Assembly (NCBI RefSeq): GCF_030408815.1
Contig: NZ_CP047355.1
Coordinates: 1,178,001 to 1,242,000, forward strand
Length of the DNA: 64,000 nt
Source of the DNA: Corynebacterium freiburgense
Lineage (GTDB): Bacteria > Actinomycetota > Actinomycetes > Mycobacteriales > Mycobacteriaceae
Direction of reading: 5' to 3'
The translations under genes were made by a program, and so were the position numbers. Below the pieces are notes generated by a model that saw only the letters and a program-made list of their open reading frames with translations, did no database searches and was not told the origin of the DNA. Positions within the stretch are counted from its first letter, which is position 1; each line of letters begins with the position of its first letter. Shown in pieces: positions 26,111 to 40,468 of this stretch.

Positions 26111-27001
26111 GTGGTAACTGACCAAAAAACAACAGAGGTTGAGGATAATAAAGAATGGATTGATGCTGGAGACTACAGCTTTAAATTACATAATGGTGTA
26201 ATTGTTGCCCGAAATGCTAAAGGTAGAGTTTTAAAAACGGTTCCAGCAAAAGCAAAAAAGCTTCAGCAGTATGAACAGCTTGAGGGGTTAAGAATTTTCC
26301 TTGCTCAGCACGAGGAACAATGCCTCGAATATGTGCGTAAGTGGTTTCTGCATGGCTTGCCGGTGCCACTGAGCGTAATTATTGCTGTATGGCCGGATCC
26401 TTCATGGCGAAAGTACCTTAATGATGTGATTGTAAGCGATGGACAAATTACGGGATTTCTACGATCAACAAATGAGCAGGGAATTCAAGTAATTGACCTT
26501 GATGGTGAATCCACATTAATACCATTTACAGATGAGGCGACTGTCCTTTTGCAACACCCAGCAATTCTGGAAGAACTTGAAGAGTGGCGGGAATTTGCAG
26601 TTGAATTAGGTGTACACCAAGGACTCGACCAATTATTCAGGGATGTGTATCAAAAGCCCTCTGATTCAGATGGTCAGAAAGCTGCAGTAAACGCTTACCA
26701 AGATGGAAAATACGATCGTTACGCGCATCTTCTTGGAAGAGCTAGAGGTGGAGGCTTTGTTGCCACAATGGCAATGGTAACGGTCGATGTTTTTGAACAT
26801 GGCGAGACAATTACCGCAGCACTCGATATTGACGCTTGGGATCCCAGTGAAGGTGCAACACTTGGGACATTAACATTCACAAAACAACAAAAGACGATGA
26901 AATTGGAAGAAGTGGGGCCAATTGCATGGTCAGAAGGTATACGAATGAGCGAATTTATATATGCTGGCCGCACAATTGAAACTAAAGGGGAAGGAAACTA
27001 A
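26111..27001 (+). CDS. DUF4132-like domain protein
   Basis: A 296-residue protein consisting almost only of a DUF4132-like module. Landmarks are VARNAKGRVLKTVPAKAKK, WRKYLNDVIVSDGQITGFL, a PFTDEATVLLQHPA segment and LEEWREFAVELGVHQGLDQLFRDVYQ. In larger bacterial proteins this module follows a WGR domain or long helical repeats; here it stands alone. It starts at GTG after AGAGG. The stop overlaps the next start (TAATG), so it is translationally coupled to the 1544-residue protein, which implies a fixed ratio and probably a physical complex. The biochemical role of DUF4132 is not known to me. Confidence 0.75.
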   Translation: MVTDQKTTEVEDNKEWIDAGDYSFKLHNGVIVARNAKGRVLKTVPAKAKKLQQYEQLEGLRIFLAQHEEQCLEYVRKWFLHGLPVPLSVIIAVWPDPSWRKYLNDVIVSDGQITGFLRSTNEQGIQVIDLDGESTLIPFTDEATVLLQHPAILEELEEWREFAVELGVHQGLDQLFRDVYQKPSDSDGQKAAVNAYQDGKYDRYAHLLGRARGGGFVATMAMVTVDVFEHGETITAALDIDAWDPSEGATLGTLTFTKQQKTMKLEEVGPIAWSEGIRMSEFIYAGRTIETKGEGN

Positions 27002-30000
27002 TGGAAAACGGAATTCTTAGTCAGGGTGGGATCCTCCCTAGTTCTCAACAATGCCCCGAAAAAGCATCTAAGCTCCTTGCAATGCAATTCCAAGGAGCTC
27101 AACGGACAATAGTTCGCCTTGTGCCCGAAAAACTCAAGCAAGCGGAAACGATTGCTCTAAAAACTTTCGATATTGAACTTGAAACCGAACAAACAGTAGG
27201 TTCAATCTACCAGCGTGCAATTGGCTTCCCCGCTTGGCCAATCATTCAAGATCCAGCGAATGCTCAACATGCCTTAAACTTAGTAGGAGATTTGGAATGG
27301 GCAAGGCGCAATGCCCGAAACCAAGCCAAAAAAGTAAAAGATCGTTTCGACGCCCTGACCACCACACTTTCCGCGTCAGCCCCGCATTTTGTACCTACCT
27401 TTCTTGAAGAACTCGCTCGAATTTTCTACCAAGTAGAGAATTTTCAATATGCAAAGCAGTACTTTGGTAAAGCGAGAATGATTGAAAGGGCATATGACCT
27501 CCCCATTGATAATGAGCGGCACCGATCTACGCTTTTAGAATTTGCTGTATCCGGAGTCATATCAGCTCGAGAACTCACTGCAGAGGCCAATGCAGCTCCA
27601 TCACGTTTTGAAACCTCTCAAGAAGCCTTTGACTTTATTTTAGAAATAAATATTGACCGAATTCGAGCGGGGGTAGCGCCCTATGCATTCTTGGTCCGTG
27701 ACTTAAGGAAACTGGGAAAGCTTGCAGGCTATAAGTCTGAACAGGTAGATACAATACTTTTAGAAAAACTTTTGCCCCTTGATGGCACATTTTCAGCCCC
27801 AGGAGGATTCTGGAAAGCGCTGGATAAATCTCTGATTACATATCTCCGCGAAAACAGACATGCCCGCGAAATTCTGCGTAAAACAAAGCCGAATGAAATT
27901 GAGGCGAATAAGTATTTTGAAATACTTCATAATGCTGGAGTAATTGCGGAAATTCGGGAGATGCTGGGCGAGCATGCAGTGTGGACACTTGAAACAATAA
28001 ATAGGCTTAGTCATGATCTTGCTTATATAGAAAAAGAAATTAGAGCTGAGGTTGCTTATGCAGGAGATCGAATTCGAGGTGGATATATAACCGCTCAAAC
28101 GCGCTATATACCATTGAATCTTCTTGATGAACTGTTTGAATATGGTGCAGTAGTAGATGCCGCACAGGTCGATGAGTATTCCTGGGCTGCCCGACCACAA
28201 TGGGGCTTGTGGACTAGAGAGCAATTTAAAGAAAATCGGCGTGGTTTGACCTTCCTTTATCAACACGAAGAATTACGGCAACAATTAATCCGCGAGCTTA
28301 GCAGCGAGGACATAGTAGCGAATTTTGATCTTCTAACAGAATTTGAGGGAACCAGGTCAATTCTTAACGATAAATTTGATGCTTTACTTGAACTTAAAAA
28401 AGATGCGTTAGGTAATCATGAAGAAATTGAAAAATATCTCAATTTAGTTAAGCCATTAGCCAAGCCAGAAATTCTAGAATTTGCACCTGAAAAAATATCT
28501 GCTATTTTTGATTTCGATGCTGTGAGTCATTTTCAAAAAATCATTCAACGCGGTAGTTTTGTAGAATATACTTGGCCTGCATTTGAGAAAGCAGTAGAGC
28601 GTTTACAAACGAAAGCTAAGACGGCTAGTTATACGATTCTTGGTTCATATCCGATGGTGATAATTGCTTGCGGAGATTATATCGAGGTCGTTGATGGCGA
28701 TGATATTGTATTCCAGGGGGAATTGCCCGCAGGTTGGGAAGTTATTTCTAGGGCGATGTTTGTTGATGGTGAAGTGGTAATTGGTTTCCGGACTCGAAAT
28801 GATTGGAATCAAAAGGAACACTGGATTGGTTCCTCGATTACAGATACCGTGAACTACTACTATGGAGCTGACGGAGAATACACCTTACCGCTTTCAGGAG
28901 GACGGCTCGGCGCTGGTGGGATAGTTACCACTAGTGATAAAAACGTATTTGAATCTTCAGGTTATGTATTTACTACAAAACAAGATGGCTCCAGCGCATA
29001 TATTAAAGGCCGGTATTCTTATAGCAACCTCAAACATTGGGATGGGCAGTCTGTGCAGCTTTGTGAGTACACTGCCAAAAAGATACTCGAAGATTTAGAT
29101 TTAGCGAATGTTATTGAGGGTTTGGATATTGACCTCACTAACGCGACTATATCTTGGCAGGACGCGACTATTATTCCGATGCAACCAACTACAGCATTAA
29201 GCCCATTTGGTTCGATAAATGGTTCGCACGTTTCAATCCCATTCCAGCTAGGGGAAAAGCGTTACCAATTGATAAGTGGTTTAGGAACTTTCGAATCCTC
29301 AATGGCGCTTGCCGTTTTGCAGCGCCCTGGTGGCGGAGTCTGGTTTGGGTCCGATGATTCGATATTTGATCCAGAATCCATGGCGGAAATTAATGCGCCT
29401 CATGACCTTAGCGGGACAAAGTTAGCTATCGCGCGACTGCCTCGAGAATGCTGGCATCAATTGGTCCCGCGAGACGTATCCGCAAGCCTAGCAATGAGGA
29501 ATTACTCGGATCAGGATGCGCGTGAGGTTATCCGCATTGTGTATGCGAGCCTGCTTGAAGAGTACAGTGAAGACTTGCTGGTGGGGTCAGTGTTCCGGGA
29601 ACTCAGTCTCGCTATGAAGGAACTAAGCCTCGCTTTACTGCATCTAGGTGCGTCTACACGTGTGGAAGACAGCGTAGTTAAAAGCATTAAAAAAGCTCTG
29701 CAACGCCATCTGAATACCGACAACGCAGTACTGATTGAAGCAATCACATCTTCAGTGATGAGAGTACGCTGGCAGATTTCCAAATTCGCAAGCTTTGGAG
29801 AATTGATTCGCCAGCAGCAACGTCGTGACAAACAGGTGAAAATTTCTAAGAAGAACCAGACAGTCCCTGTATTAACGCCAGGTGCTTACAAAGTTTTGGA
29901 AACCCTCGTAGGAAAGCATTATCGAAGTTCACCGGATGCAGTGGCAAACCTGATTTCTGAACTTGCACGATTTTCGGAAAACCAGGATACGAATGTAATA

Positions 30001-31635
30001 GTAGACAATCTTGAAAATCTACTGTGCCTTAATATTGCTTCAAATGAGCGCTATATTTTGGGACGAATGGGGGCTCCTTATATTGCCCGTCTATTAGGTA
30101 AAGAGGCGGTACTGGAGTTTATTCAATGGCTCCGGGCAGGAGTTGCTGCCGGTGTATTCGCTTCTGGATGGCGAATTGGAAAGGTGGATATTCCTAAAAA
30201 TAGTGAAAATAAAAATGTCCTACCCGTGGGGTCCGTGGTTGAGGGTTGTTTAGTCATTGATACAAGCTATAACTGGATTGCTTCACAGCGAGTCGAGCAG
30301 CGCATTCTCTGGATTCCTGATGCCCGTGAATCAGTTGATGGCATGCAAATAAAAGAAAATCAATGTGATGCATTGAAGGCAACACCATTATTGGAAGCTC
30401 TTCAGGCAATTGAAGACAACCTCGATTCTCGTGAGCTTAGCGAGGATGCAGTTGAAGCATTAGCTCTATCAACTCCACTTACACGAAGCGCTGTAAAATA
30501 TATTTACGGTGGAAAGCTGAACCCAAATGATTGGGATGCAAATTTCCTGTCTAAAGAGCAAAGGGCCGTTCTTGGTTTCTCGATTTTGCAAACAAAATCG
30601 GTGCATACGCAAAGCCGAGCGTTCCAAGAAATCATAGAAAAATCTTTAGTCTGTGCTGTTCCGAAAGATGATCCTGTCTCATATATAACGAATGGTTTGG
30701 ATATTAGTGCGGTTTTAAAGGTCTGGGAATCTGAGTATGGTGAAGCGGATATTCCGCTCACCGATGAGGAGATTGTATATCTGCATACGAAAATTGGGGA
30801 AGCACAAAATCGTGTACTCAATGTAAGTATGCCGGCATCCTCTTTGTCCTATAAAAAGATCGGCGATTTCAACGGTGATCATACGTTTTTGGCGGCTCTG
30901 CTTTGGCTCGCTTCCCATCGACCGTTAAATGATCCGCACCGCCCAAAGATCGCCCAAAAACTTATGTGGTTAAAAGAAACTGCGCAGCATGAATACGCTA
31001 AAAACTCTAAACTGCAAAAAGCTTTTGCAAAAGTACAATTGGGCGTTGAATATGAAACAGCGCTTCAGCCATATATTGAGCAACAGGGCGTGCGTTTACT
31101 CCTAGAAGGTCATCTTGATGCTCTAATAGAAGATCTTCAAACGGTTTATAGTACTGATAAGCATGCTTGGGATCCTTTAGTAAGTGCGCCAGAAGTTGTT
31201 GAAAAGGCGATGGAAAAGCTTCAAATTTCAGAGGACGCGGCTCGCTACTATCTCCAACTACTAGCTTTGGTGGATGCTGACGATAAGAACATTCGTTTGT
31301 GGAACGGTTGGCGCAAAAAGAATATTGATTCCGCAGCTGCGGAATTGTTGGAACACGGACTCATTATTGAAGCCGATCGACCAGGTACTGGGCGTAAGCG
31401 TTTCCTTCCTGGTGGGTGGTTGTCGGGAATTGCCGGTAGTAGGCCCATGGAATCCTGGAAGATTCATCATTATTACGTCTGGGCTGATTCTGTTGTTCGG
31501 CCAATCATTCCAGGCAATCCCGTCACAGTTCCCTTAGGGAAGTTGTATGTAGATGTATGGCAGCGCTATGAATCCGGTGACACCCCCGGCTATGAAGCAC
31601 TAACAACCAACCGTTATCGAACGCGACGTCGATAA
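27001..31635 (+). CDS. 1544-residue multidomain protein, first large paralogue
   Basis: Visible regions: an N-terminal beta-rich segment (about 30-70); a helical repeat region with a TPR-like unit (FQYAKQYFGKARMIERAYDL, about 150); long helical stretches to about 510; a beta-rich middle (about 540-830); a conserved block ERYILGRMGAPYIARLLG with a partner VVEGCLVID (about 1015-1085); and a C-terminal winged-helix-like part (ISEDAARYYLQLLALVD, then AAAELLEHGLIIEADR) ending RYRTRRR. No nuclease, ATPase or signal motif is seen. Similar actinobacterial proteins of 1500-1700 residues are, as I recall, annotated 'DNA-binding' and occur near DUF4132 proteins. G+C is clearly below the flanking housekeeping genes. 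Confidence 0.8.
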   Translation: MENGILSQGGILPSSQQCPEKASKLLAMQFQGAQRTIVRLVPEKLKQAETIALKTFDIELETEQTVGSIYQRAIGFPAWPIIQDPANAQHALNLVGDLEWARRNARNQAKKVKDRFDALTTTLSASAPHFVPTFLEELARIFYQVENFQYAKQYFGKARMIERAYDLPIDNERHRSTLLEFAVSGVISARELTAEANAAPSRFETSQEAFDFILEINIDRIRAGVAPYAFLVRDLRKLGKLAGYKSEQVDTILLEKLLPLDGTFSAPGGFWKALDKSLITYLRENRHAREILRKTKPNEIEANKYFEILHNAGVIAEIREMLGEHAVWTLETINRLSHDLAYIEKEIRAEVAYAGDRIRGGYITAQTRYIPLNLLDELFEYGAVVDAAQVDEYSWAARPQWGLWTREQFKENRRGLTFLYQHEELRQQLIRELSSEDIVANFDLLTEFEGTRSILNDKFDALLELKKDALGNHEEIEKYLNLVKPLAKPEILEFAPEKISAIFDFDAVSHFQKIIQRGSFVEYTWPAFEKAVERLQTKAKTASYTILGSYPMVIIACGDYIEVVDGDDIVFQGELPAGWEVISRAMFVDGEVVIGFRTRNDWNQKEHWIGSSITDTVNYYYGADGEYTLPLSGGRLGAGGIVTTSDKNVFESSGYVFTTKQDGSSAYIKGRYSYSNLKHWDGQSVQLCEYTAKKILEDLDLANVIEGLDIDLTNATISWQDATIIPMQPTTALSPFGSINGSHVSIPFQLGEKRYQLISGLGTFESSMALAVLQRPGGGVWFGSDDSIFDPESMAEINAPHDLSGTKLAIARLPRECWHQLVPRDVSASLAMRNYSDQDAREVIRIVYASLLEEYSEDLLVGSVFRELSLAMKELSLALLHLGASTRVEDSVVKSIKKALQRHLNTDNAVLIEAITSSVMRVRWQISKFASFGELIRQQQRRDKQVKISKKNQTVPVLTPGAYKVLETLVGKHYRSSPDAVANLISELARFSENQDTNVIVDNLENLLCLNIASNERYILGRMGAPYIARLLGKEAVLEFIQWLRAGVAAGVFASGWRIGKVDIPKNSENKNVLPVGSVVEGCLVIDTSYNWIASQRVEQRILWIPDARESVDGMQIKENQCDALKATPLLEALQAIEDNLDSRELSEDAVEALALSTPLTRSAVKYIYGGKLNPNDWDANFLSKEQRAVLGFSILQTKSVHTQSRAFQEIIEKSLVCAVPKDDPVSYITNGLDISAVLKVWESEYGEADIPLTDEEIVYLHTKIGEAQNRVLNVSMPASSLSYKKIGDFNGDHTFLAALLWLASHRPLNDPHRPKIAQKLMWLKETAQHEYAKNSKLQKAFAKVQLGVEYETALQPYIEQQGVRLLLEGHLDALIEDLQTVYSTDKHAWDPLVSAPEVVEKAMEKLQISEDAARYYLQLLALVDADDKNIRLWNGWRKKNIDSAAAELLEHGLIIEADRPGTGRKRFLPGGWLSGIAGSRPMESWKIHHYYVWADSVVRPIIPGNPVTVPLGKLYVDVWQRYESGDTPGYEALTTNRYRTRRR

Positions 31636-31647
31636 GTTTAGTAGCAA

Positions 31648-31681
31648 GGCGTCACATTGTAATCGGTGTGGCGCCATTTTT
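31648..31681 (+). terminator. Terminator between the two large paralogues
   Basis: GGCGTCACA (31648-31656) pairs with TGTGGCGCC (31667-31675, one G-T), followed by ATTTTTATT. It lies 13 nt after the first large gene and 20 nt before the second start, so it should lower expression of the second relative to the first. Confidence 0.8.
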
Positions 31682-31700
31682 ATTAAAGAGGAATCTATCA

Positions 31701-34700
31701 ATGAAATCTATTCGCGAATTTGAAGTGCTCCCAGTTTCAGAAGATATACATATTAACCGCGGGAAAATTGATGCTTTGTGTGCGGTTACAACTCACCTTG
31801 GTCATCAAACGGTTGTTCGTTTAACGCCACGACAATTGGTTCCAGTGATCGGGCAGGTTGCACAATTCTTTGGTGGCAGTATTGAACCAGAAAAGATTGT
31901 GGGTATTACGCGTATTCGTGCCGCCGGATTTCCCGAATGGCCAATCTTGCAATACCCAGAACATACTCGCAATGTATTAAATCTGGTGAGCGATTTGGAA
32001 TGGGCGCGTCGCCAAATAAAAGCCAACCCAAATAAAGTAAAAAAACATTTCGACGCCTTGACCGCTGATCTAGGTGCGAGTGTTCCGCAGCTTATTCCGC
32101 CGCTACTTGATGAACTGTCTCGAATATCGGGCTATGCAAATAAACAGAAATTGGCAAAGCAGTTTTTCCAGCGAGCGAGGACCGCAGAACGGGTTCATTC
32201 ATTGCCAATTGACATTGAGCACCATGCAACCGTACTTAAAGAATTCGCTGATTTAGGAATATTGACCTCGAAGGAGCTACAAGCAGAAGTAAAAGACGCA
32301 TCTAAATACACTGGCGAACCTGCTGATATTTTTGCTTTTCTCCTAGATATCCATGCCCGCTATGTTGAAGCTGGAAATCCTCCGTATGCGTATTTGGTGC
32401 GTGATATGCGTAAATTGGGGGAGTCGGCAGGATTAAAGCAGGATGTCATTGATACAAAAATCATGGATGCGCTACTGCATTTGCAAGCCACAAAGAATGC
32501 TCCCCACAAATTCTGGGAAGCTCTACGTCATACCTTGCCGGAATATTTGCAGAATAATCCAGAAATAGCAGAGGAACTATTTTTTGCAAAACCACAAAAT
32601 TTTAATATAAAGAAATACTTTTCTACGTTTACGGCCATTGGATTACTCGATCGAGTTCGAAATGATAGAACGCTCTATTGTCAGTGGTTGGAAAAAGTCC
32701 TTGGTAATTTGCGCGCTGATGAGTATATCCAAGGCACAAGCCTTTTGCTAAGTGAGCTACAAAACGCTTCCAGTCAACTTACAGGCGCAACTATTATGGT
32801 TGATTTCGGAAATATGCCACCAAGCATTCTCGATGCCTTGTGTGAATATGGTGTTGAGATTCGTTCATTGCATAATCATCGATGGATGAGCCGTATTCGG
32901 TGGGATCTGTGGCTAAGTGAGGAACCAAAAGAATTTCGCCGTGATTTGAGTTATATTGCAAAAAATTCCGAATTATCTGAGCGTTTTGCTGAAGAGTTAA
33001 ACCATTGGGAGATTAAAACTTATTGCGACGTTATATACAATAATAGCGGTGCTTTGGAGCTTCTGAAACGAAAAATTGCGACCTACATTTCCCAACTTGA
33101 ACAAGCATTCGGCAGTGTTGCTGAAACGCAAAAAGTCCTGAACCTAGTTAGTGAATTGGCGTTACCGGAATTGCCAAATATGGTTGGCGATCAAATCCGG
33201 CGCTTGTTTTCCTTCCAGGCTGTCCCGAACTTCCAACAAGCTGTGCGTTCAGGGTTGCTTTTTGAACTTACTTGGCCAGCATTTGAATCCGAAGTAAGTT
33301 CACTGCAAAGCGAAAACAATGATGATGCTGTATCCGTGTATGAATCTTATCCGGGCGCAGCTATTGTTTGCGGAAATGATATTTCAATCGTAGAGGGTGA
33401 AAAGGTAGTTTTTCGCGGATCGCTACCTGCTGGTGCATATACCGTTATTGGAGTTCAGTTTGTACAAAATAACGTGATGTTAGTGTATGAACCGCGCACT
33501 GATTGGCGGATTTTTACGCAATGGCTGGGTGCGGTGGAAACAAAAGCTTTTCCATTTTCTTCATTTCCTGGTGACCAATTTTCTTTGCAGGTAGAAGATG
33601 GGCGCCTTACAAGTGATGGACTTATTGTTCCTGGAAAGCTAGTTCATCCAGGATGCCGGGGGACTGTGTTAGCAACCAACCATAAAGGCATTCCAGCTTT
33701 TACATGTGGCGTAAATGATGGGGATCTTACCCGGATTTGGGATGGAAAAAACCTTGCGGTGTTCAAGGGAGAGGCTTTGGAGATTTTGGAAAAGCTCGGA
33801 GTCTTCGATATGGCACTTGATTTTTCAGGAATACAGAACGCTGAGTTTATCCCTGATCACAGTATGATTATTCCGGCTGATAAAACAACAATTTCAAGCC
33901 TTTTAGGTCAAATTGACGGTGTGCACCTTAGTGCACAATTCCGTAATGAAGATGGCACGTATTTTTGTGTCAGCCCGCTAGGTACCTTTAAGACCGCAAA
34001 AAGTGGAATGTTCCCGTTGCAGCGCCCAGGTGGTGGGTTCTGGTTCGTGGGCCAAAACGCCAATCTTTACGATTCGGACACTGAAAATGTATTGGTGGTT
34101 AGGGCAGAAAGTTTGGGGGAAAGCGCTGTGTTAGCGCAACTGCCGGTGTCGGCGTGGCATCAGCTGCGCCCGCGAAGTGTTGCTGCGAGTGTTGCAATGC
34201 GTAATTATTCAGCTGAACAAGCAAATGCAGTTATCGACGCCGTGGAAAACGGCGATAAAGAGTTGGCTCAAGGTATTATCGAACAACAATTACCAGGTGC
34301 CGATTCAGTGTTGTGTAAAGCGGTGCTGGCTTTGGCGGAAAGCATGCATGAACTGGCTGTTGAGTTTTCACGCTGCGCAAACCTTACTGGACAAACGATA
34401 AAAGCAATTGAGCTTCCAGAATTTTCGCTAGAAGCTTTGGCGCTTCTATATAATTTTCACCCTAACTTTTCGTATCCGCACGTATCTTTGTTGAATCGTC
34501 TGGTAGACCTACTTTCAGAATTCTGCAGCACCGGTGGTGTTAGTACACAATACTTCGATTTTTTTGAAGAAGTTCCGTGGCTAAAACTTGTGGGACGCGA
34601 ACGCTACATTATTGGGATATTAGGTGCACCACTTTTGGGGAAGCTCGTCGGCGAGAAAAACGTTATTGAACTGGCGAAATTTTTTAAGGATGGAACCCAG

Positions 34701-36197
34701 AAAGGAATTTTCTGCTCCGACTGGCGGTATCTGCAAGTAAACCTAGGGCAGACAAATGACAAGTTTGATGAGTTTTGGCCTGCTGAAACAGTGATCGATG
34801 GTTGTCTTGTAATTGACCAAGATTGGGATGATTATGATAATGAGATTCGATATGTTTGGGGTTTGAAAGATAAAACTACTGTTGATGGTTTTCCTGTTGT
34901 CCCCCAGGATTATTGTCCACTATCAGCAGACGAGTTTGTAGCGTGCCTAGATGCTATTGAGGCTCAGGTAGCAAACCGAGACCTTGATCTAACAGCCGTG
35001 GAAACTATTGTGGAAAATACTGGGCTTACGTCGCAAGCAGTAAAGCATGTCTTTGGTGGGATTCTCCATGGTGCGTTGAGTCGAGGAACGCAACTTTCAC
35101 CCGAACAGAGAGATGTCTTTGGGTTCACGGCTGAAGAAGCAAAAGGTCTTTGCTTGGAAATTGATTATAGAAGCGACATTATTGCAAAAATGCTTGAGGC
35201 TGCGGTACCTGAAGAAAATGCCGTTTCCTATATATTGCAGGGTTTGGATGCTCAACGCGTAGTAGAGGCTTGGAAGCAATACGGTCCGAGTACAACACTG
35301 CGACTCAGCCCCGCAGAGTTGGTTGTGTTTTCCAAGCACTTTTCGCACAATCTAGGGAATTTGCTGCGCAACTTGGAAGAAGATCCATTCGCTTTTCTTC
35401 GAGAGCATTCTCATGCCTGCTCGACATTGGGAGGTTGTATTGCAGTGTTGCTCTTGGCGGCTGAGTCTGAGGAATGTACTGCTGCGCGTAGAGAGTATAT
35501 CGTCCAGAAACTTCTAAAGCTTCGGGATGCACTGGAGCACAGCTTGCAGACAGATGGTGAATTACGAGGTTACTTATCTGATATTGAGTTCGGTGCCGCG
35601 TATGACGATAAGCGGTTTGAATGGTATACCTACTCAACTAGCAATGATGCATTACGACCACTTCTGGAAGGATATCTCGATGTACTTATCGATGATTTAA
35701 AGCACAACAAGCCCGTGGAAGGTTGCCTGTGGGACCCAATGGTTTCGGCACCAGAGGTGGTGGAAGAAGTCTGCTCACAATTAAAGTTATCAGCGCAAGC
35801 TGCGCGGTATTACTTACAACTTCTTTCTCTTGCGGATCCGAGTGATCGAAATATTCGGCGATGGAACTCCTGGAAAACCTCGGATATTGCCAACGCTTCC
35901 AATGAATTGCTTGATGCTGGACTGATTATTGAGGCAAAACGCCAAAAAGCGGGTAGAACGCGTTTTGTGCCTGGGGCTTGGTTATCAGGAGGACGAAACG
36001 TAACCCCTATGGAGGCGTGGAAAGCCCCGCTCTATTTATTGTGGAAAGACACTCAAGTTCGGCCGATGTATGCAGGGACACCACTGCTTGTGCCTCATGG
36101 TGTGTTATTCAGGGAAGTTTGGGATCGTATTATTGCGGGTGATGTTCCTGGATACCAAGAGCTCACTACTGAGCAGTACCGTACGCGGCGTCGATAA
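31701..36197 (+). CDS. 1498-residue multidomain protein, second large paralogue
   Basis: Collinear with the preceding protein over its whole length. Shared landmarks are FPEWPILQYPE versus FPAWPIIQDPA, NLVSDLEWARRQ versus NLVGDLEWARRN, AYLVRDMRKLGESAG versus AFLVRDLRKLGKLAG, LQRPGGGFWF versus LQRPGGGVWF, ERYIIGILGAPLLGKLVG, QAARYYLQLLSLADPSDRNIRRW, and the identical end YRTRRR. Overall divergence is high, so the duplication is old and both copies are under selection. AGAGG precedes the ATG at 31701; the frame opens earlier at 31668, inside the terminator. No catalytic motif is visible. Heteromer formation is an inference. Confidence 0.8.
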   Translation: MKSIREFEVLPVSEDIHINRGKIDALCAVTTHLGHQTVVRLTPRQLVPVIGQVAQFFGGSIEPEKIVGITRIRAAGFPEWPILQYPEHTRNVLNLVSDLEWARRQIKANPNKVKKHFDALTADLGASVPQLIPPLLDELSRISGYANKQKLAKQFFQRARTAERVHSLPIDIEHHATVLKEFADLGILTSKELQAEVKDASKYTGEPADIFAFLLDIHARYVEAGNPPYAYLVRDMRKLGESAGLKQDVIDTKIMDALLHLQATKNAPHKFWEALRHTLPEYLQNNPEIAEELFFAKPQNFNIKKYFSTFTAIGLLDRVRNDRTLYCQWLEKVLGNLRADEYIQGTSLLLSELQNASSQLTGATIMVDFGNMPPSILDALCEYGVEIRSLHNHRWMSRIRWDLWLSEEPKEFRRDLSYIAKNSELSERFAEELNHWEIKTYCDVIYNNSGALELLKRKIATYISQLEQAFGSVAETQKVLNLVSELALPELPNMVGDQIRRLFSFQAVPNFQQAVRSGLLFELTWPAFESEVSSLQSENNDDAVSVYESYPGAAIVCGNDISIVEGEKVVFRGSLPAGAYTVIGVQFVQNNVMLVYEPRTDWRIFTQWLGAVETKAFPFSSFPGDQFSLQVEDGRLTSDGLIVPGKLVHPGCRGTVLATNHKGIPAFTCGVNDGDLTRIWDGKNLAVFKGEALEILEKLGVFDMALDFSGIQNAEFIPDHSMIIPADKTTISSLLGQIDGVHLSAQFRNEDGTYFCVSPLGTFKTAKSGMFPLQRPGGGFWFVGQNANLYDSDTENVLVVRAESLGESAVLAQLPVSAWHQLRPRSVAASVAMRNYSAEQANAVIDAVENGDKELAQGIIEQQLPGADSVLCKAVLALAESMHELAVEFSRCANLTGQTIKAIELPEFSLEALALLYNFHPNFSYPHVSLLNRLVDLLSEFCSTGGVSTQYFDFFEEVPWLKLVGRERYIIGILGAPLLGKLVGEKNVIELAKFFKDGTQKGIFCSDWRYLQVNLGQTNDKFDEFWPAETVIDGCLVIDQDWDDYDNEIRYVWGLKDKTTVDGFPVVPQDYCPLSADEFVACLDAIEAQVANRDLDLTAVETIVENTGLTSQAVKHVFGGILHGALSRGTQLSPEQRDVFGFTAEEAKGLCLEIDYRSDIIAKMLEAAVPEENAVSYILQGLDAQRVVEAWKQYGPSTTLRLSPAELVVFSKHFSHNLGNLLRNLEEDPFAFLREHSHACSTLGGCIAVLLLAAESEECTAARREYIVQKLLKLRDALEHSLQTDGELRGYLSDIEFGAAYDDKRFEWYTYSTSNDALRPLLEGYLDVLIDDLKHNKPVEGCLWDPMVSAPEVVEEVCSQLKLSAQAARYYLQLLSLADPSDRNIRRWNSWKTSDIANASNELLDAGLIIEAKRQKAGRTRFVPGAWLSGGRNVTPMEAWKAPLYLLWKDTQVRPMYAGTPLLVPHGVLFREVWDRIIAGDVPGYQELTTEQYRTRRR

Positions 36198-36227
36198 TTA
36201 TTTAGTGCCAAGCATTGGAGTGCTGAA

Positions 36228-36275
36228 AGCGACGATGGGTTCACATAGGGGGTAGTAAACCTATCGCCGCTTTTT
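36228..36275 (+). terminator. Terminator after the second large paralogue
   Basis: AGCGACGATGGG (36228-36239) pairs with CCTATCGCCGCT (36260-36271) using two wobble pairs, followed by TTTTT. Confidence 0.75.
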
Positions 36276-36348
36276 AGAAAGTATTTTTGGCATGAACTAC
36301 AGGGGGTTTCAAGGTGTCCCATTGATTTCCTAGCAACTCTATATCCGA

Positions 36349-37293
36349 ATGTGGAAGCGAAAAACGCGGGATTACCTCGAGTTAGTTGATAATACTTTGC
36401 CGTATCCGGGAAGCGGTATCGCTACATTGGGATTTGAATTGGCCGTATCGTTGTATTGGAACAGTGGGGACATGGGGCAATTGGAACCATTACAAATAAA
36501 AAATGGAAAAATACTTCCATTAGTTCGTGAATTTGCCCCAGAAACCGCTCCCATTGCCGCCACTATTTTTACGGTATGTGGGCATAGGGCGGTTGTGAAA
36601 CTTGTTCCCGAATGTCTAGTACAGGCGGAGCGGGCCAATATCGTAACACTTGGTGGTACACAAGAGGGCGTGGTGACTGTTGGGGTGGGTACGCCGGATA
36701 CATTGGGATTTCCAGAGTGCGTATTGGTGGAAAACCCGGAGTGCTTTCACGAAGTATTGCCCTTGATTCATAGTCTTCAAAATGCGCGAACGAGTGTTTG
36801 CGTGAAGCGTCGCCAAACACGAAACGAACTTTTAGAATTTACGGCTCAGGTATGCGGCACCCGACCCGAGTTTGCACCAGTTTTTTTGGAGGAGGCTAGT
36901 AGGATTTTCTGGTACTGCGGAGATATTGCGAGCGCGCGGATGCTATTTAGCAAAGCTAGAAACATCGAGGCGAACTACAGGTTGCCTGTGGATTATGGCA
37001 GACACTGTCGGGTAATCGAACAATTTGCGTCACTTGGGTTGTGTTCGGCAAAAGTGTTCCAAGTAGAAGCCAAAGGCATTGCTGCTATGTCTCCGGGCAG
37101 CAATGCTGCTTTTCTATGGTTGCTTCGCATATATATTGCGAATATTTGCGCTGGTTATGGCCCTTTTGAAACGGTGAAGCGTTGTTTATATCGCTTGGGA
37201 GACAAAGTGCCATTAAGCCGCGCAGCAATTAGCGCTGAAATGCGTAAAGCTATCCAAGCAACTGGAATGAAGCAATCAAATGAGCCTGTGTAA
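36349..37293 (+). CDS. Short third paralogue, N-terminal region only
   Basis: A 314-residue protein matching only the first fifth of the two large proteins: AVVKLVPECLVQAE, LGFPECVLVENPECFHEVLPL, PVFLEEASRIFWYCGDIASARMLFSKARNIEANYRLPVDYGRH and FASLGLCSAK line up in order with both. It ends shortly after the region equivalent to the YLVRDxRKLG block. Start is uncertain: the frame runs from ATG 36349, but the match begins near ATG 36472 and neither has a good ribosome site. It is separated from the operon by a terminator. It may be a decayed third large gene or a free-standing N-terminal adaptor. The intact 314-codon frame favours continued use. Confidence 0.65.
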   Translation: MWKRKTRDYLELVDNTLPYPGSGIATLGFELAVSLYWNSGDMGQLEPLQIKNGKILPLVREFAPETAPIAATIFTVCGHRAVVKLVPECLVQAERANIVTLGGTQEGVVTVGVGTPDTLGFPECVLVENPECFHEVLPLIHSLQNARTSVCVKRRQTRNELLEFTAQVCGTRPEFAPVFLEEASRIFWYCGDIASARMLFSKARNIEANYRLPVDYGRHCRVIEQFASLGLCSAKVFQVEAKGIAAMSPGSNAAFLWLLRIYIANICAGYGPFETVKRCLYRLGDKVPLSRAAISAEMRKAIQATGMKQSNEPV

Positions 37294-38485
37294 GAGACTG
37301 ACCTTTTACTTTTAAAGCTCCAAGCGGGGGTAGTGGGCTTTAAAAGGTAGCGTCACACGCCTGCCGTGTTTGGTGCTAGTTATCAGGGCACATCTAGTGC
37401 GCTAATGTGAACTTAGCCAGAAAGGGTTCTTGGCTGGATCAATATAGTCTGCAAAATGGCCAAATTTTAGCTTTGTGTTCGGTAGGGGAAGCATACTCGC
37501 TGGCCTGGCTATTTGGTTATGTTGATAATAGCAATATTGTTCGGACGTGAGATTGGGGGGTGGCGCGTGAATGACTCGGGCAAAGCAATCATGTGGCGTG
37601 GCATTTCATCATGCATTATCCGTTAGGTCTTTGCAGGGGATGACGGGTACACCCTTTTGGGTGCACATGCTTCTATGCGTGCAAACTCATTGTTGTCTGG
37701 GTTTGGCCAGGGCTAATATCTCCATGTATTGATCGTTTCTACGGTATTTCGGGATTCGAGTTTAAGGTGTACTGCTCTGTGGATGGGGGCACTTGCCAAA
37801 GGGGTGGCGGGCGTACTTTTCTGCAAAATTACAGCACAAGCAGTGTATGCAGTGAAGAGTGCCAATTAATTATTAGAAAGTTATGAGAATTAGATCATTT
37901 ATTATGTGTTGTGATGGCAATATTTTAGATTTTGGTTATTTTTCCAGCGTACTCTTTTTTGCGTTATCTGGTGTTTTGGAGCAAGGAAATATATATGGTA
38001 GGGGGGATTGATTCTAAAATAGTTGTCGCAGTATTCTGGCAAAGTATTCGCACTTCTGCTGCTGAATTGCAGTGTCATTGGGTTTGGTGTTGGTATTGGG
38101 TTGCTTATATTTACGGGGGTCTGGGTATACGCTTTGTGCTGCGATTAAGATAATCTCATGATTCGATTTCTGGCGGGGGTGGCATGCAATCCACGCACTT
38201 CGAATGGTTGTACGCAAACATATCTAAGTCAAATATATTGCGGAAAACCATATAGGGTGATACTAGATTTGAAGCAGCCATTTTTGTTTTGCGATAGCGT
38301 AAAATCTGCCGGCTAACATTTGAAGTAGAACTACCCCTAAATTGGCTATCTCTTTTGAGTAAGTTCCTGAACTAATCCTAAGAATTTGGAAATTGAGTAG
38401 CGTTTTAGCGCTGAATTTGTTTCTAATGGATGGTATGAATACAAGAACTACGTTTTGGCACCATCTTTTGAGGCCACTGAGTACA
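37294..38485. other. 1.2-kb gene-poor interval after the third paralogue
   Basis: No convincing gene; the longest frames are short and lack ribosome sites. A CTTTTAAAGC/GCTTTAAAAG inverted repeat (37309-37318 and 37337-37346) follows the stop and may terminate it. GGGTACACCC...GGGTGCACA near 37648 is a further small hairpin. I searched for remnants of the C-terminal landmarks of the large paralogues (ERYI-G, YRTRRR) by eye and saw none. The last 100 bp must hold the promoter for the VWA gene. Confidence 0.5.
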
Positions 38486-40468
38486 ATGAAACGTTCTGGT
38501 CCCATTGCAGTTTTAGGGGCGTGTGCGCTGCTTGGGGCTGGGGCACCGGTGGCCTGGGCAGCGACTACGGCCACTACGGAAGCCGCCACAGAGGCTGCAG
38601 GAACGTATCCAGATACGGCGTTGATTATCGACGCCTCGGGCTCAATGTGGGCGCCTGATGCTTCTGGGCAGGTACGTATGGACGCTGCGAAGCAAGCTAC
38701 CGTTGGTCTTGTAAATCAGTTACCAAAAGATCAAAAGCTAGCATTATTGACCTATGGTATTGGCACTGGCAATACCGACGCCGAAAAAGAAGCGGGCTGT
38801 AAAGATGTTCATACGCTCGTTAAGTTGGGTGGTTCGCATGAAGAGATCGCCACTCAGGTAGAAGGGCTGCAGGCAAGCGGGTATACCCCTATTGGGCCAG
38901 CTTTATTACAGGCGGAAAAAGAACTTGAGAGCACGGGACCTCGCCAAATCGTGTTGGTTTCGGATGGCATTGATACCTGTGCACCTCCACAAGTTGCCGA
39001 TGTTGCAAAGGAAATTCGCGACCGCTCTGGCGATGAACTTGTAATCAATGTGGTTGGTTTTAATGTCAACGACGAGGCGCGTGCTCAGCTTCAGCAAGTT
39101 GCTGAAGTCAGTGGTGGCGTATACACCGACGCTAGTGATGCCGATTCATTATTGGAGTCTTTGGCAGCCAAGACTAACGGCGGTGACTCAAATAAGACCG
39201 ATAGTTCAAAGACCTCTGGGGAAGAAACCTCCACATCTGAAACCACCGGTAGTGAAGATCCTTCCTCAAGCAAAGAATCGACAACTGCTTCTGAGGAACC
39301 ATCATCCAGTGGTTCTGCAGCCGCAGCAGCACTTGGTGGTCTTAAAGATGATCAACCTGCTCCTGAGGTTTATAAAGGTAACCTTCCTGCCACTGTCCAA
39401 AGCGGCGGTGAAGTAAAAGACCAGGATCTTTCTTGGACTGTGAACCTTGAGCAAGGCCAGCAGCTCAATGCTGGATTCCTGATTCCTGAGCCGGCGAAGA
39501 ACACCACTGGTGGAGGAACCGACATTACTTTGACACCAACGCTTACAAGCCCAGATGGAAAGAGCTGTGAAGCTACTGTTACAGAAGCCAAGGTGCAGGA
39601 TGACTTTGCATTCACACAGTCTGCCTCATTGCTTTCCCCAGTGATTGAAAAGGCAAGCATGTGTAAGCCTGGTGAGTACACACTGTCTCTCAAGCGTTCT
39701 GGTGAACTTGTGGGAGACCAAGAACTGCCTGTTGAGCTTTCCTTGTGGGGCGTGCCACAGGTAGATGAATCGAATATGCCAGCTGCTTCCGATAAGCCTG
39801 AAGTTGGTGAAGTAACTGTTGGCACAGCTACTGGTAAGTTGCCAACAGATACTGATAAGTCCGCTGCACCAAGCGTGAGTGAAGGTACTTACGATGTAGA
39901 ACTAGCCCCAGGTGAAACCCACTGGTTCAAAGTTCCTGTCAAGGACGGACAGCGTCTACAAATGCAGATGCAAGCAGATCCTACTGGTGCCGAAGGCCAC
40001 AATGTTGGGTGGAAAGTCTTTGGCCCAATGTTTAACCCAGTGGAACTCAATGTTGGTGATAAAGGCAATGTTGGTTTGAATGCCAATGCAGAAACAGTTG
40101 CCGATATTGCTACCCAGCCAATTCGTTGGGCAAACCTCAAGACCGAAGGGCCTACGGCAAATGGTTTCCTCGCTGGTGAGCAATACGTAGCCCTCCGCCA
40201 TAATGCTCCTGAAGGCGACACCAAACCTGCCAAGTTCCGGCTAGCCCTCGCAAATACCGGTGAGTCCGAGGCTGCACCAAACTTTGCACAGGCAACTGGT
40301 GTACCGGAAGGTACTGGTACCTCGAATACGGCAGCTAATACCAATAACAGCAGCAAGTCCGCCAATGTGTGGTGGTTGCTCCTCCTGCTGTTCACTTTGG
40401 TAGGTATTGTTTCCTATGTTGCAGCCCGCAAAAAGTGGGATAAGGACGAAGAAGCAGCAAAGGCGTAA
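38486..40468 (+). CDS. Secreted, membrane-anchored von Willebrand factor A-domain protein
   Basis: A 660-residue extracytoplasmic protein. A signal peptide (residues 1-25, MKRSGPIAVLGACALLGAGA, cleavage after AWA) precedes a VWA domain (about 43-205) with an intact metal site: DASGS at 49-53 and VSDGIDTC later. A Ser/Thr/Glu-rich linker (about 215-270), a large beta-rich region and a C-terminal membrane helix (VWWLLLLLFTLVGIVSYVA) with a charged tail complete it. The frame opens at 38393 with internal ATGs at 38426 and 38435; I chose 38486 because it gives a compact signal peptide, but the ribosome site is weak. It may bind a protein or polymer in the cell envelope. A hairpin follows. Confidence 0.8.
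   Translation: MKRSGPIAVLGACALLGAGAPVAWAATTATTEAATEAAGTYPDTALIIDASGSMWAPDASGQVRMDAAKQATVGLVNQLPKDQKLALLTYGIGTGNTDAEKEAGCKDVHTLVKLGGSHEEIATQVEGLQASGYTPIGPALLQAEKELESTGPRQIVLVSDGIDTCAPPQVADVAKEIRDRSGDELVINVVGFNVNDEARAQLQQVAEVSGGVYTDASDADSLLESLAAKTNGGDSNKTDSSKTSGEETSTSETTGSEDPSSSKESTTASEEPSSSGSAAAAALGGLKDDQPAPEVYKGNLPATVQSGGEVKDQDLSWTVNLEQGQQLNAGFLIPEPAKNTTGGGTDITLTPTLTSPDGKSCEATVTEAKVQDDFAFTQSASLLSPVIEKASMCKPGEYTLSLKRSGELVGDQELPVELSLWGVPQVDESNMPAASDKPEVGEVTVGTATGKLPTDTDKSAAPSVSEGTYDVELAPGETHWFKVPVKDGQRLQMQMQADPTGAEGHNVGWKVFGPMFNPVELNVGDKGNVGLNANAETVADIATQPIRWANLKTEGPTANGFLAGEQYVALRHNAPEGDTKPAKFRLALANTGESEAAPNFAQATGVPEGTGTSNTAANTNNSSKSANVWWLLLLLFTLVGIVSYVAARKKWDKDEEAAKA

Follow-up and report, generated by a model that had tools for sequence, protein, structure and literature searches.

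Giant proteins encoded between pfkA and gatB in Corynebacterium freiburgense: a candidate satellite of a distant yeh-type MoxR–VWA system

What does a cluster of giant proteins do when the genes for its likely motor lie elsewhere in the chromosome? The question arises in a 64,000-nucleotide stretch of the Corynebacterium freiburgense chromosome (contig NZ_CP047355.1; "the window" below is that whole stretch), where a DUF4132 protein (P0001), two giant paralogues (giant 1, P0002, and giant 2, P0003) and a short third paralogue (P0004) are encoded between pfkA and gatB. Beside this DUF4132 gene the window holds no motor gene; the genome's only DUF5682 gene and only MoxR gene of the relevant type both lie near 1.36 Mb, at what we call the main locus. 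Because this motor gene set occurs once, about 150 kb away, the window cluster is a satellite, i.e., extra giants and a DUF4132 protein without a motor gene. The cluster is real and accessory, and what is new in it is the giant family and the modularity of that family. As for its role, we give a slightly better than even chance to a satellite module of a yeh-type MoxR–VWA system, adding giant recognition subunits to the distant motor.

The window cluster ends ∼148 kb before the main locus starts, in a genome of 2.96 Mb. The main locus encodes a MoxR ATPase, a protein in which DUF5682 is joined to a VWA_CoxE domain (residues 904 to 1123 of 1128), a SWIM-motif protein, and a DUF4132 protein and giant of its own; on its 3' side lies an SPFH/Band 7 gene. 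The Pfam matches scored 2.2e-37 for MoxR (PF07728), 2.5e-108 for DUF5682, 1.1e-49 for VWA_CoxE and 7.4e-22 for DUF4132. The SWIM protein reached 10.7 against a Pfam cut-off of 19.6 and was assigned by CxCx5CxH, the SWIM motif; this motif, GEPGTAKS and DxSxS recur in 12/12 core loci. DUF4132 occurs at two places in the genome, with PF13569 above its cut-off at both, and further giant loci lie near 0.71, 1.37 and 1.56 Mb. A preliminary description of the window had the cluster acting without a local MoxR ATPase: this stands for the window itself, but the genome does have one ∼150 kb away. An SPFH/Band 7 gene lies 3' of the main set in three species (L038:13480-14616, L058:16670-17845 and L062:11828-13012; 84 to 92% identical), and its product is a possible membrane scaffold partner.

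Every component of a yeh-type system (MoxR, DUF5682, VWA_CoxE, SWIM and DUF4132) is present at the main locus. The yeh genes of Escherichia coli K-12 are yehI (DUF4132), yehL (MoxR), yehM, yehP (VWA) and yehQ (SWIM); YehM we take to be the DUF5682 protein of E. coli, and E. coli matches appeared in our DUF5682 search as a control. The likeness lies in the joint encoding of VWA, SWIM and DUF4132 with a MoxR whose P-loop reads GEPGTAKS, as in YehL. However, E. coli has DUF4132 inside the 1210-residue YehI and a separate VWA protein, whereas here a stand-alone DUF4132 protein (∼290 residues) accompanies a giant, and DUF5682 and VWA are one protein. The giant family profile did not match two single YehI-type sequences, which is a weak test. 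Where, then, does the giant belong? Three giant-less loci carry a YehI-like protein, directly before MoxR (L095, L096) or after SWIM (Corynebacterium L072), and because it stands there, we conclude that DUF4132 and giant occupy the place of YehI.

Gene order elsewhere keeps the same company. Corynebacterium loci L075, L076 and L081 read DUF4132, giant, MoxR, DUF5682–VWA, SWIM, and so do 6/6 loci of another genus of the class; L038, L058, L062, L064 and L065 read MoxR, DUF5682–VWA, SWIM, DUF4132, giant. On a Streptomyces atratus plasmid the annotation runs 'DUF4132', 'DNA-binding protein', 'AAA family ATPase', 'DUF5682', 'hypothetical'. A DUF4132 gene lies within 600 bp 5' of the giant at 32/38 places. 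The link of DUF4132 to MoxR/VWA genes, noted in the preliminary description, is thus borne out by adjacency at the main locus, in the other genus and on the plasmid.

Across Corynebacterium, giants were found in 29/242 genomes, three of them with fragments only. This count is a lower bound because the profile search scored no more than two candidates in each genome, and it agrees with the earlier suggestion of an accessory system that is not universally core. DUF4132 was found in 28 of the 242 genomes and DUF5682 in 23. Both follow the giants: DUF4132 is in 26/29 giant genomes versus 2/213 giant-less ones (G166, G124; Fisher p 2e-29), and DUF5682 in 21/29 versus 2/213 (G166, G135; Fisher p 1e-21), with kinship ignored in both tests. 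All 20 long DUF5682 frames (1098 to 1466 residues) are in giant-bearing genomes and both short ones (729 and 741 residues) in giant-less genomes; one further frame is cut by a contig end. MoxR of the main-locus type occurs in 4/4 species with the pfkA–gatB satellite. In a sample of the phylum, 8/296 genomes have giants, and DUF5682 is in 8/8 of these. Distant relatives occur in 10 of 72,556 plasmid records, all from Streptomyces or Embleya; 50,697 phage records held none, and none was confirmed on viral contigs searched with two patterns.

The structure of the window cluster is largely as first described (Table 1). The open reading frame (ORF) coordinates and the PF13569 match (E 1.3e-19; 71.3 bits against a cut-off of 27) agree with a DUF4132-only protein whose ORF overlaps that of giant 1 by 1 nt. 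Giant 2 has 1509 residues from its GTG and 1498 from the in-frame ATG at 31701, the latter being the length of its protein database entry (P0156). Its reported paralogy with giant 1 was confirmed at 33% identity over 1537 columns (E 0.0), and both end in YRTRRR, similar to the family consensus RYRRR. The third paralogue is likewise N-terminal-only: P0004 has counterparts only in the N-terminal ∼275 residues of each giant (E 4e-34 and 1e-31) and keeps 29/45 near-invariant head positions, and the alignment makes a start at ATG 36472 (273 residues) more likely. With both giants as tblastn queries, the interval 36150-38450 gave no match above chance level other than the end of giant 2 and P0004.

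Table 1. Features of the window cluster and predicted modules of giant 1
Feature	Position in window	Strand	Remarks
DUF4132 protein P0001	26111..27001	+	296 aa (amino acids), GTG start, first gene of unit
Giant 1 (P0002, 1544 aa)	27001..31635	+	same-site relatives G120, G240 and G244 group with it (tree)
Giant 1 residues 1-290, conserved head	27001..27870	+	small alpha/beta unit, then TPR-like helices; model with mean pLDDT (predicted local distance difference test score) 91
Giant 1 residues 291-540, TPR-like helical solenoid continuing head	27871..28620	+	predicted
Giant 1 residues 541-805, beta-propeller-like domain	28621..29415	+	predicted
Giant 1 residues 806-1390, helical/mixed, variable	29416..31170	+	model; 27-36% identity between species
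Giant 1 residues 1391-1544, conserved tail, winged helix	31171..31632	+	predicted
Giant 2 (P0003)	31668..36197	+	groups with second same-site giant of G240 (tree)
P0004, head-only paralogue, possibly decaying	36349..37293	+	314 aa; matches only giant residues ∼6-275
Gap of 1.1 kb, no detectable giant remnant	37294..38392	.	tblastn

Known families say little about the giants, which had no match above cut-off in Pfam, NCBIfam or PADLOC; in a PDB sequence search the best E values were 0.33 for P0002 and 0.56 for P0001. P0001 shares the DUF4132 domain with the MolR/WGR–DUF4132 proteins, but a Pfam scan up to E 1 found no WGR domain in P0001 to P0004; WGR is present in MolR according to PMC8533742 and PMC7824862.

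How old is the unit at this site? That pfkA and gatB lie close together in related genomes, as stated earlier, proved correct, with both on one contig in 61/61 genomes and a median gap of 1907 bp; the gap is 19 to 6499 bp in 60 genomes versus 14651 bp in C. freiburgense. G120 and G244, both outside this sample, have DUF4132 and one giant between the two genes; G240 has pfkA, DUF4132 and two giants before its contig ends. Giant 1 clusters with the first same-site giant of G120, G240 and G244, and giant 2 with the second of G240 (FastTree, local support 99 to 100 in each case). Because the same-site giants of the four species group together, the unit looks from its phylogeny like an old insertion that has been kept vertically. 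The cluster is A+T-rich against its surroundings, as stated before (GC 44.4% for 26111-36197 versus 49.4% for the remaining window). We rejected recent horizontal transfer as the reading of this composition because the third-position GC of the giants (36.8 and 38.6%) is near that of gatB (39.0%; pfkA, 43.4%), the main-locus giant is alike, and four species share the site. Only the DUF4132 gene is clearly lower at third positions (32.0%). The main-locus DUF4132 and giant genes (41.8 and 44.5% GC) equal the window copies, and the other two C. freiburgense giants have 48.7 and 49.6%.

A further gene between the giants and gatB (38393-40468) encodes a VWA protein that, judged from its sequence, looks secreted and has a membrane segment at its C terminus. 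Relatives at least 74% identical are listed only in the four species with the pfkA–gatB satellite. We did not count this gene as part of the cluster because its wider family occurs in 76/242 genomes at E 1e-30. The giant near 1.56 Mb, which stands alone, has a paralogue of this VWA protein 4.8 kb away (L039:17549-19480, minus strand; E 6.7e-106).

The predicted architecture of the giants suggests what they might do. Fold prediction agrees with TPR repeats plus a beta-propeller, with structural matches that are middling: Foldseek returned 2 rows at E < 0.001 for giant 1 residues 1-880 and 0 rows for residues 837-1544. The model of the variable region has a mean pLDDT of 86.2, with residues 837-871 below 50. 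No enzyme fold was recognized; an ordinary enzyme was the outcome that the preliminary description named as telling against its idea.

Module-by-module scoring covered the family ORFs from the fetched loci, 71 of them not cut by a stretch edge and 70 distinct (L066_145 repeats L049_17145). All six modules are found in both window giants and in 44/71 ORFs overall (with that repeat among the 71). The remaining forms recur in kind. Propeller-less giants include L047_13690, L049_10901, L063_12698 and database proteins of 916 to 1104 residues; front-half forms of 892 to 918 residues, two each in G026 and G183, end in the same region of the fourth module; and solenoid–propeller proteins of 505 to 661 residues stand alone in five distinct cases (four in G026, one in G141). 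In the G026 array, three stand-alone solenoid–propeller genes come after a propeller-less giant, and two of them, the second and the third, overlap the preceding gene by 4 nt each. One pair of paralogues there has a 365-bp segment in common at the 5' end (90% identity), which is its only shared stretch of 100 bp or more. The truncated ORFs of L053 and L079 are halves of a broken gene, and the head is missing from the C. freiburgense copy at 710 kb. We read the giants as modular recognition subunits, for which an immune role is plausible and unproven. Also in the G026 array are short proteins of 246 and 202 residues (L047:16769-17509 and L049:18920-19528) that overlap adjacent family ORFs, the former without a Pfam match. 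At L082:7641-9385 (minus strand), tandem DUF4132 genes lie between two tail-less giants beside a MoxR gene set.

The giants also change far faster than their flanking genes. Identity to three other species with the same site is 95 to 97% for pfkA, 68 to 70% for DUF4132 and 39 to 43% for giant 1, and gatB is 94 to 96% identical to the two species with gatB on the fetched contig. Within giant 1, residues 1-290 are 53 to 60% identical between species, residues 291-1390 27 to 38%, and residues 1391-1544 59 to 60%. The main locus has its own gradient between C. freiburgense and others, from MoxR (89 to 91%) through DUF5682–VWA (72 to 74%) and SWIM (59 to 63%) to the giant (39 to 41%). Six close giant pairs gave no sign of positive selection; because the ratio of nonsynonymous to synonymous substitution rates (dN/dS) was at most 0.53 in any region, what we report is fast change, not positive selection. 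Synonymous divergence along the G026/G245 giant pair swings from 1.7 to 0.2 between regions. In a comparison of giant 1 with its 97% relative P0005, 43/54 differences fall from residue 1166 onward; P0005 is metagenome-derived, and an assembly chimera is possible. Both patterns are compatible with recombination of giants. Recent gene conversion among the C. freiburgense giants was tried and rejected, as no more than two stretches passed, one of 141 bp (72%) and one of 91 bp (79%).

In design, the giant–MoxR system resembles the beta-propeller MoxR–vWA ternary conflict system, which Kaur et al. 2020 (PMC7159879) describe with a TPR–beta-propeller third component, a highly variable region, a GXXXTAKS P-loop and a vWA protein that itself has a C-terminal propeller. 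The shared features are a third component with predicted TPR-like and propeller-like parts and a variable region and a P-loop, GEPGTAKS, that fits GXXXTAKS. However, the VWA domain here is at the very end of its protein, the predicted propeller is in the giant, and the main-locus MoxR is below the bpMoxR cut-off (21.3 versus 27 bits). Because its vWA protein lacks a C-terminal propeller, our system is, by that description, not a member. The literature searched, mostly without subscription journals and with no preprints, held no recognized account of the giant family or gene set, and no account of yeh-type MoxR–VWA function was found in it.

One mechanism accounts for most of these observations. 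The motor complex would consist of a MoxR AAA+ ring, the DUF5682–VWA co-factor and the SWIM-motif protein, encoded once next to a DUF4132 protein and a giant of its own. Giants would act as recognition or scaffold subunits, with the head and winged-helix tail docking to shared partners (the DUF4132 adaptor and the motor) and the fast-changing solenoid and propeller core binding a target. After target binding, the VWA protein would grip the giant subunit, and the ATPase would remodel it and so release a response. With the satellite, the system would gain two further specificities and a DUF4132 protein of the satellite's own, supplied in trans. The genes and their surroundings, the order of predicted domains, the distribution, the relative rates and the modular variants were observed; we infer docking, target binding, remodelling and satellite–motor cooperation, the first three because of the general MoxR–VWA mechanism as given in PMC7159879. 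A further step would be one MoxR–VWA motor with a genome-encoded, immune-like repertoire of interchangeable giant sensors, which we regard as a tentative possibility. On that view a constant head and tail would frame a solenoid–propeller cassette that may be lost as a unit, stand alone directly 3' of a propeller-less giant, or be reshuffled between paralogues.

Does the genomic context point to defense? With PADLOC 2.0.0, P0001 to P0004 had no match up to E 1, and MoxR, DUF5682–VWA, SWIM and three SPFH proteins gave only one weak local match (E 0.0041). A neighbor scan covered 93 of 118 script-picked neighbors, 25 having been dropped by eye, mostly as likely spurious frames. At 1e-10 in PADLOC it returned the Cas5g/Cas7g (csb1, csb2) models in two proteins of one locus (L071) and AbiLii, PDC-S48, DEDDh and mad2 in 1 or 2 proteins each (raw counts); the Pfam families shown (25/113) were mainly housekeeping. 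At L071:384-3158 (minus strand), Type I-U csb1/csb2-like CRISPR genes stand just before a MoxR set with a giant and a stand-alone solenoid–propeller protein.

MoxR–VWA could instead be an assembly or stress chaperone, as in RavA-ViaA and CoxD-CoxE, with DUF4132 and giant as clients or scaffold and no part in immunity. Complex assembly or metal insertion is the role of most MoxR–VWA pairs reviewed in PMC7159879. In PMC8533742, a DUF4132 protein is suggested to act in connection with molybdopterin, and its operon is reported to rise strongly on depletion of the Deinococcus DNA-damage repressor DdrO. Purifying selection in close giant pairs points the same way. However, the patchy presence and multi-copy arrays would be unusual for a housekeeping chaperone, as would truncated and recombinant-looking copies and a core that diverges so fast, and we consider this explanation unlikely. 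The thought that the window cluster is a relic, a duplicated unit decaying without present function, could appeal to the eroded head of the stub P0004 and to the head-less copy at 710 kb, but both window giants are complete in their modules and same-site relatives have been kept in other species, which makes it very improbable.

What weighs against the satellite reading is a set of genomes in which the motor seems to be missing. Giants occur without DUF5682 in G107, G178, G180 and G187 at 99% completeness, in G138 (also 99% complete, with a 34-residue remnant only) and in the incomplete genomes G222, G239 and G251. Because G107, G178, G180 and G187 have neither MoxR of the main-locus type nor DUF5682, DUF4132 and giant may literally do without MoxR in some species. 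In G180 the pair is broken, but in G107, G178 and G187 it is intact, and the giants there are under purifying selection (dN/dS 0.20 to 0.43 by region); this weighs most against the idea that the pair strictly depends on the motor. They would suit an autonomous DUF4132–giant pair, e.g., a DNA-bound sensor or regulator acting through the winged helix predicted in the giant tail, with the motor optional, and the motor-less window would suit it as well. Yet DUF4132 and giant lie beside motor genes across distant genera, every species with the satellite has the motor, and a more distant MoxR could serve the exceptions (none was found at E 0.001 with the main-type query). We judge full autonomy quite unlikely.

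For the satellite reading, the wider interest lies in the motor's target. The yeh-type MoxR–VWA system occurs even in E. coli K-12, and the giant family, with its constant ends, fast-changing core, modular variants and satellites at other chromosomal sites, opens a way to ask what this motor acts on. If the repertoire idea is true, one motor would serve many specificities through modular giant proteins.

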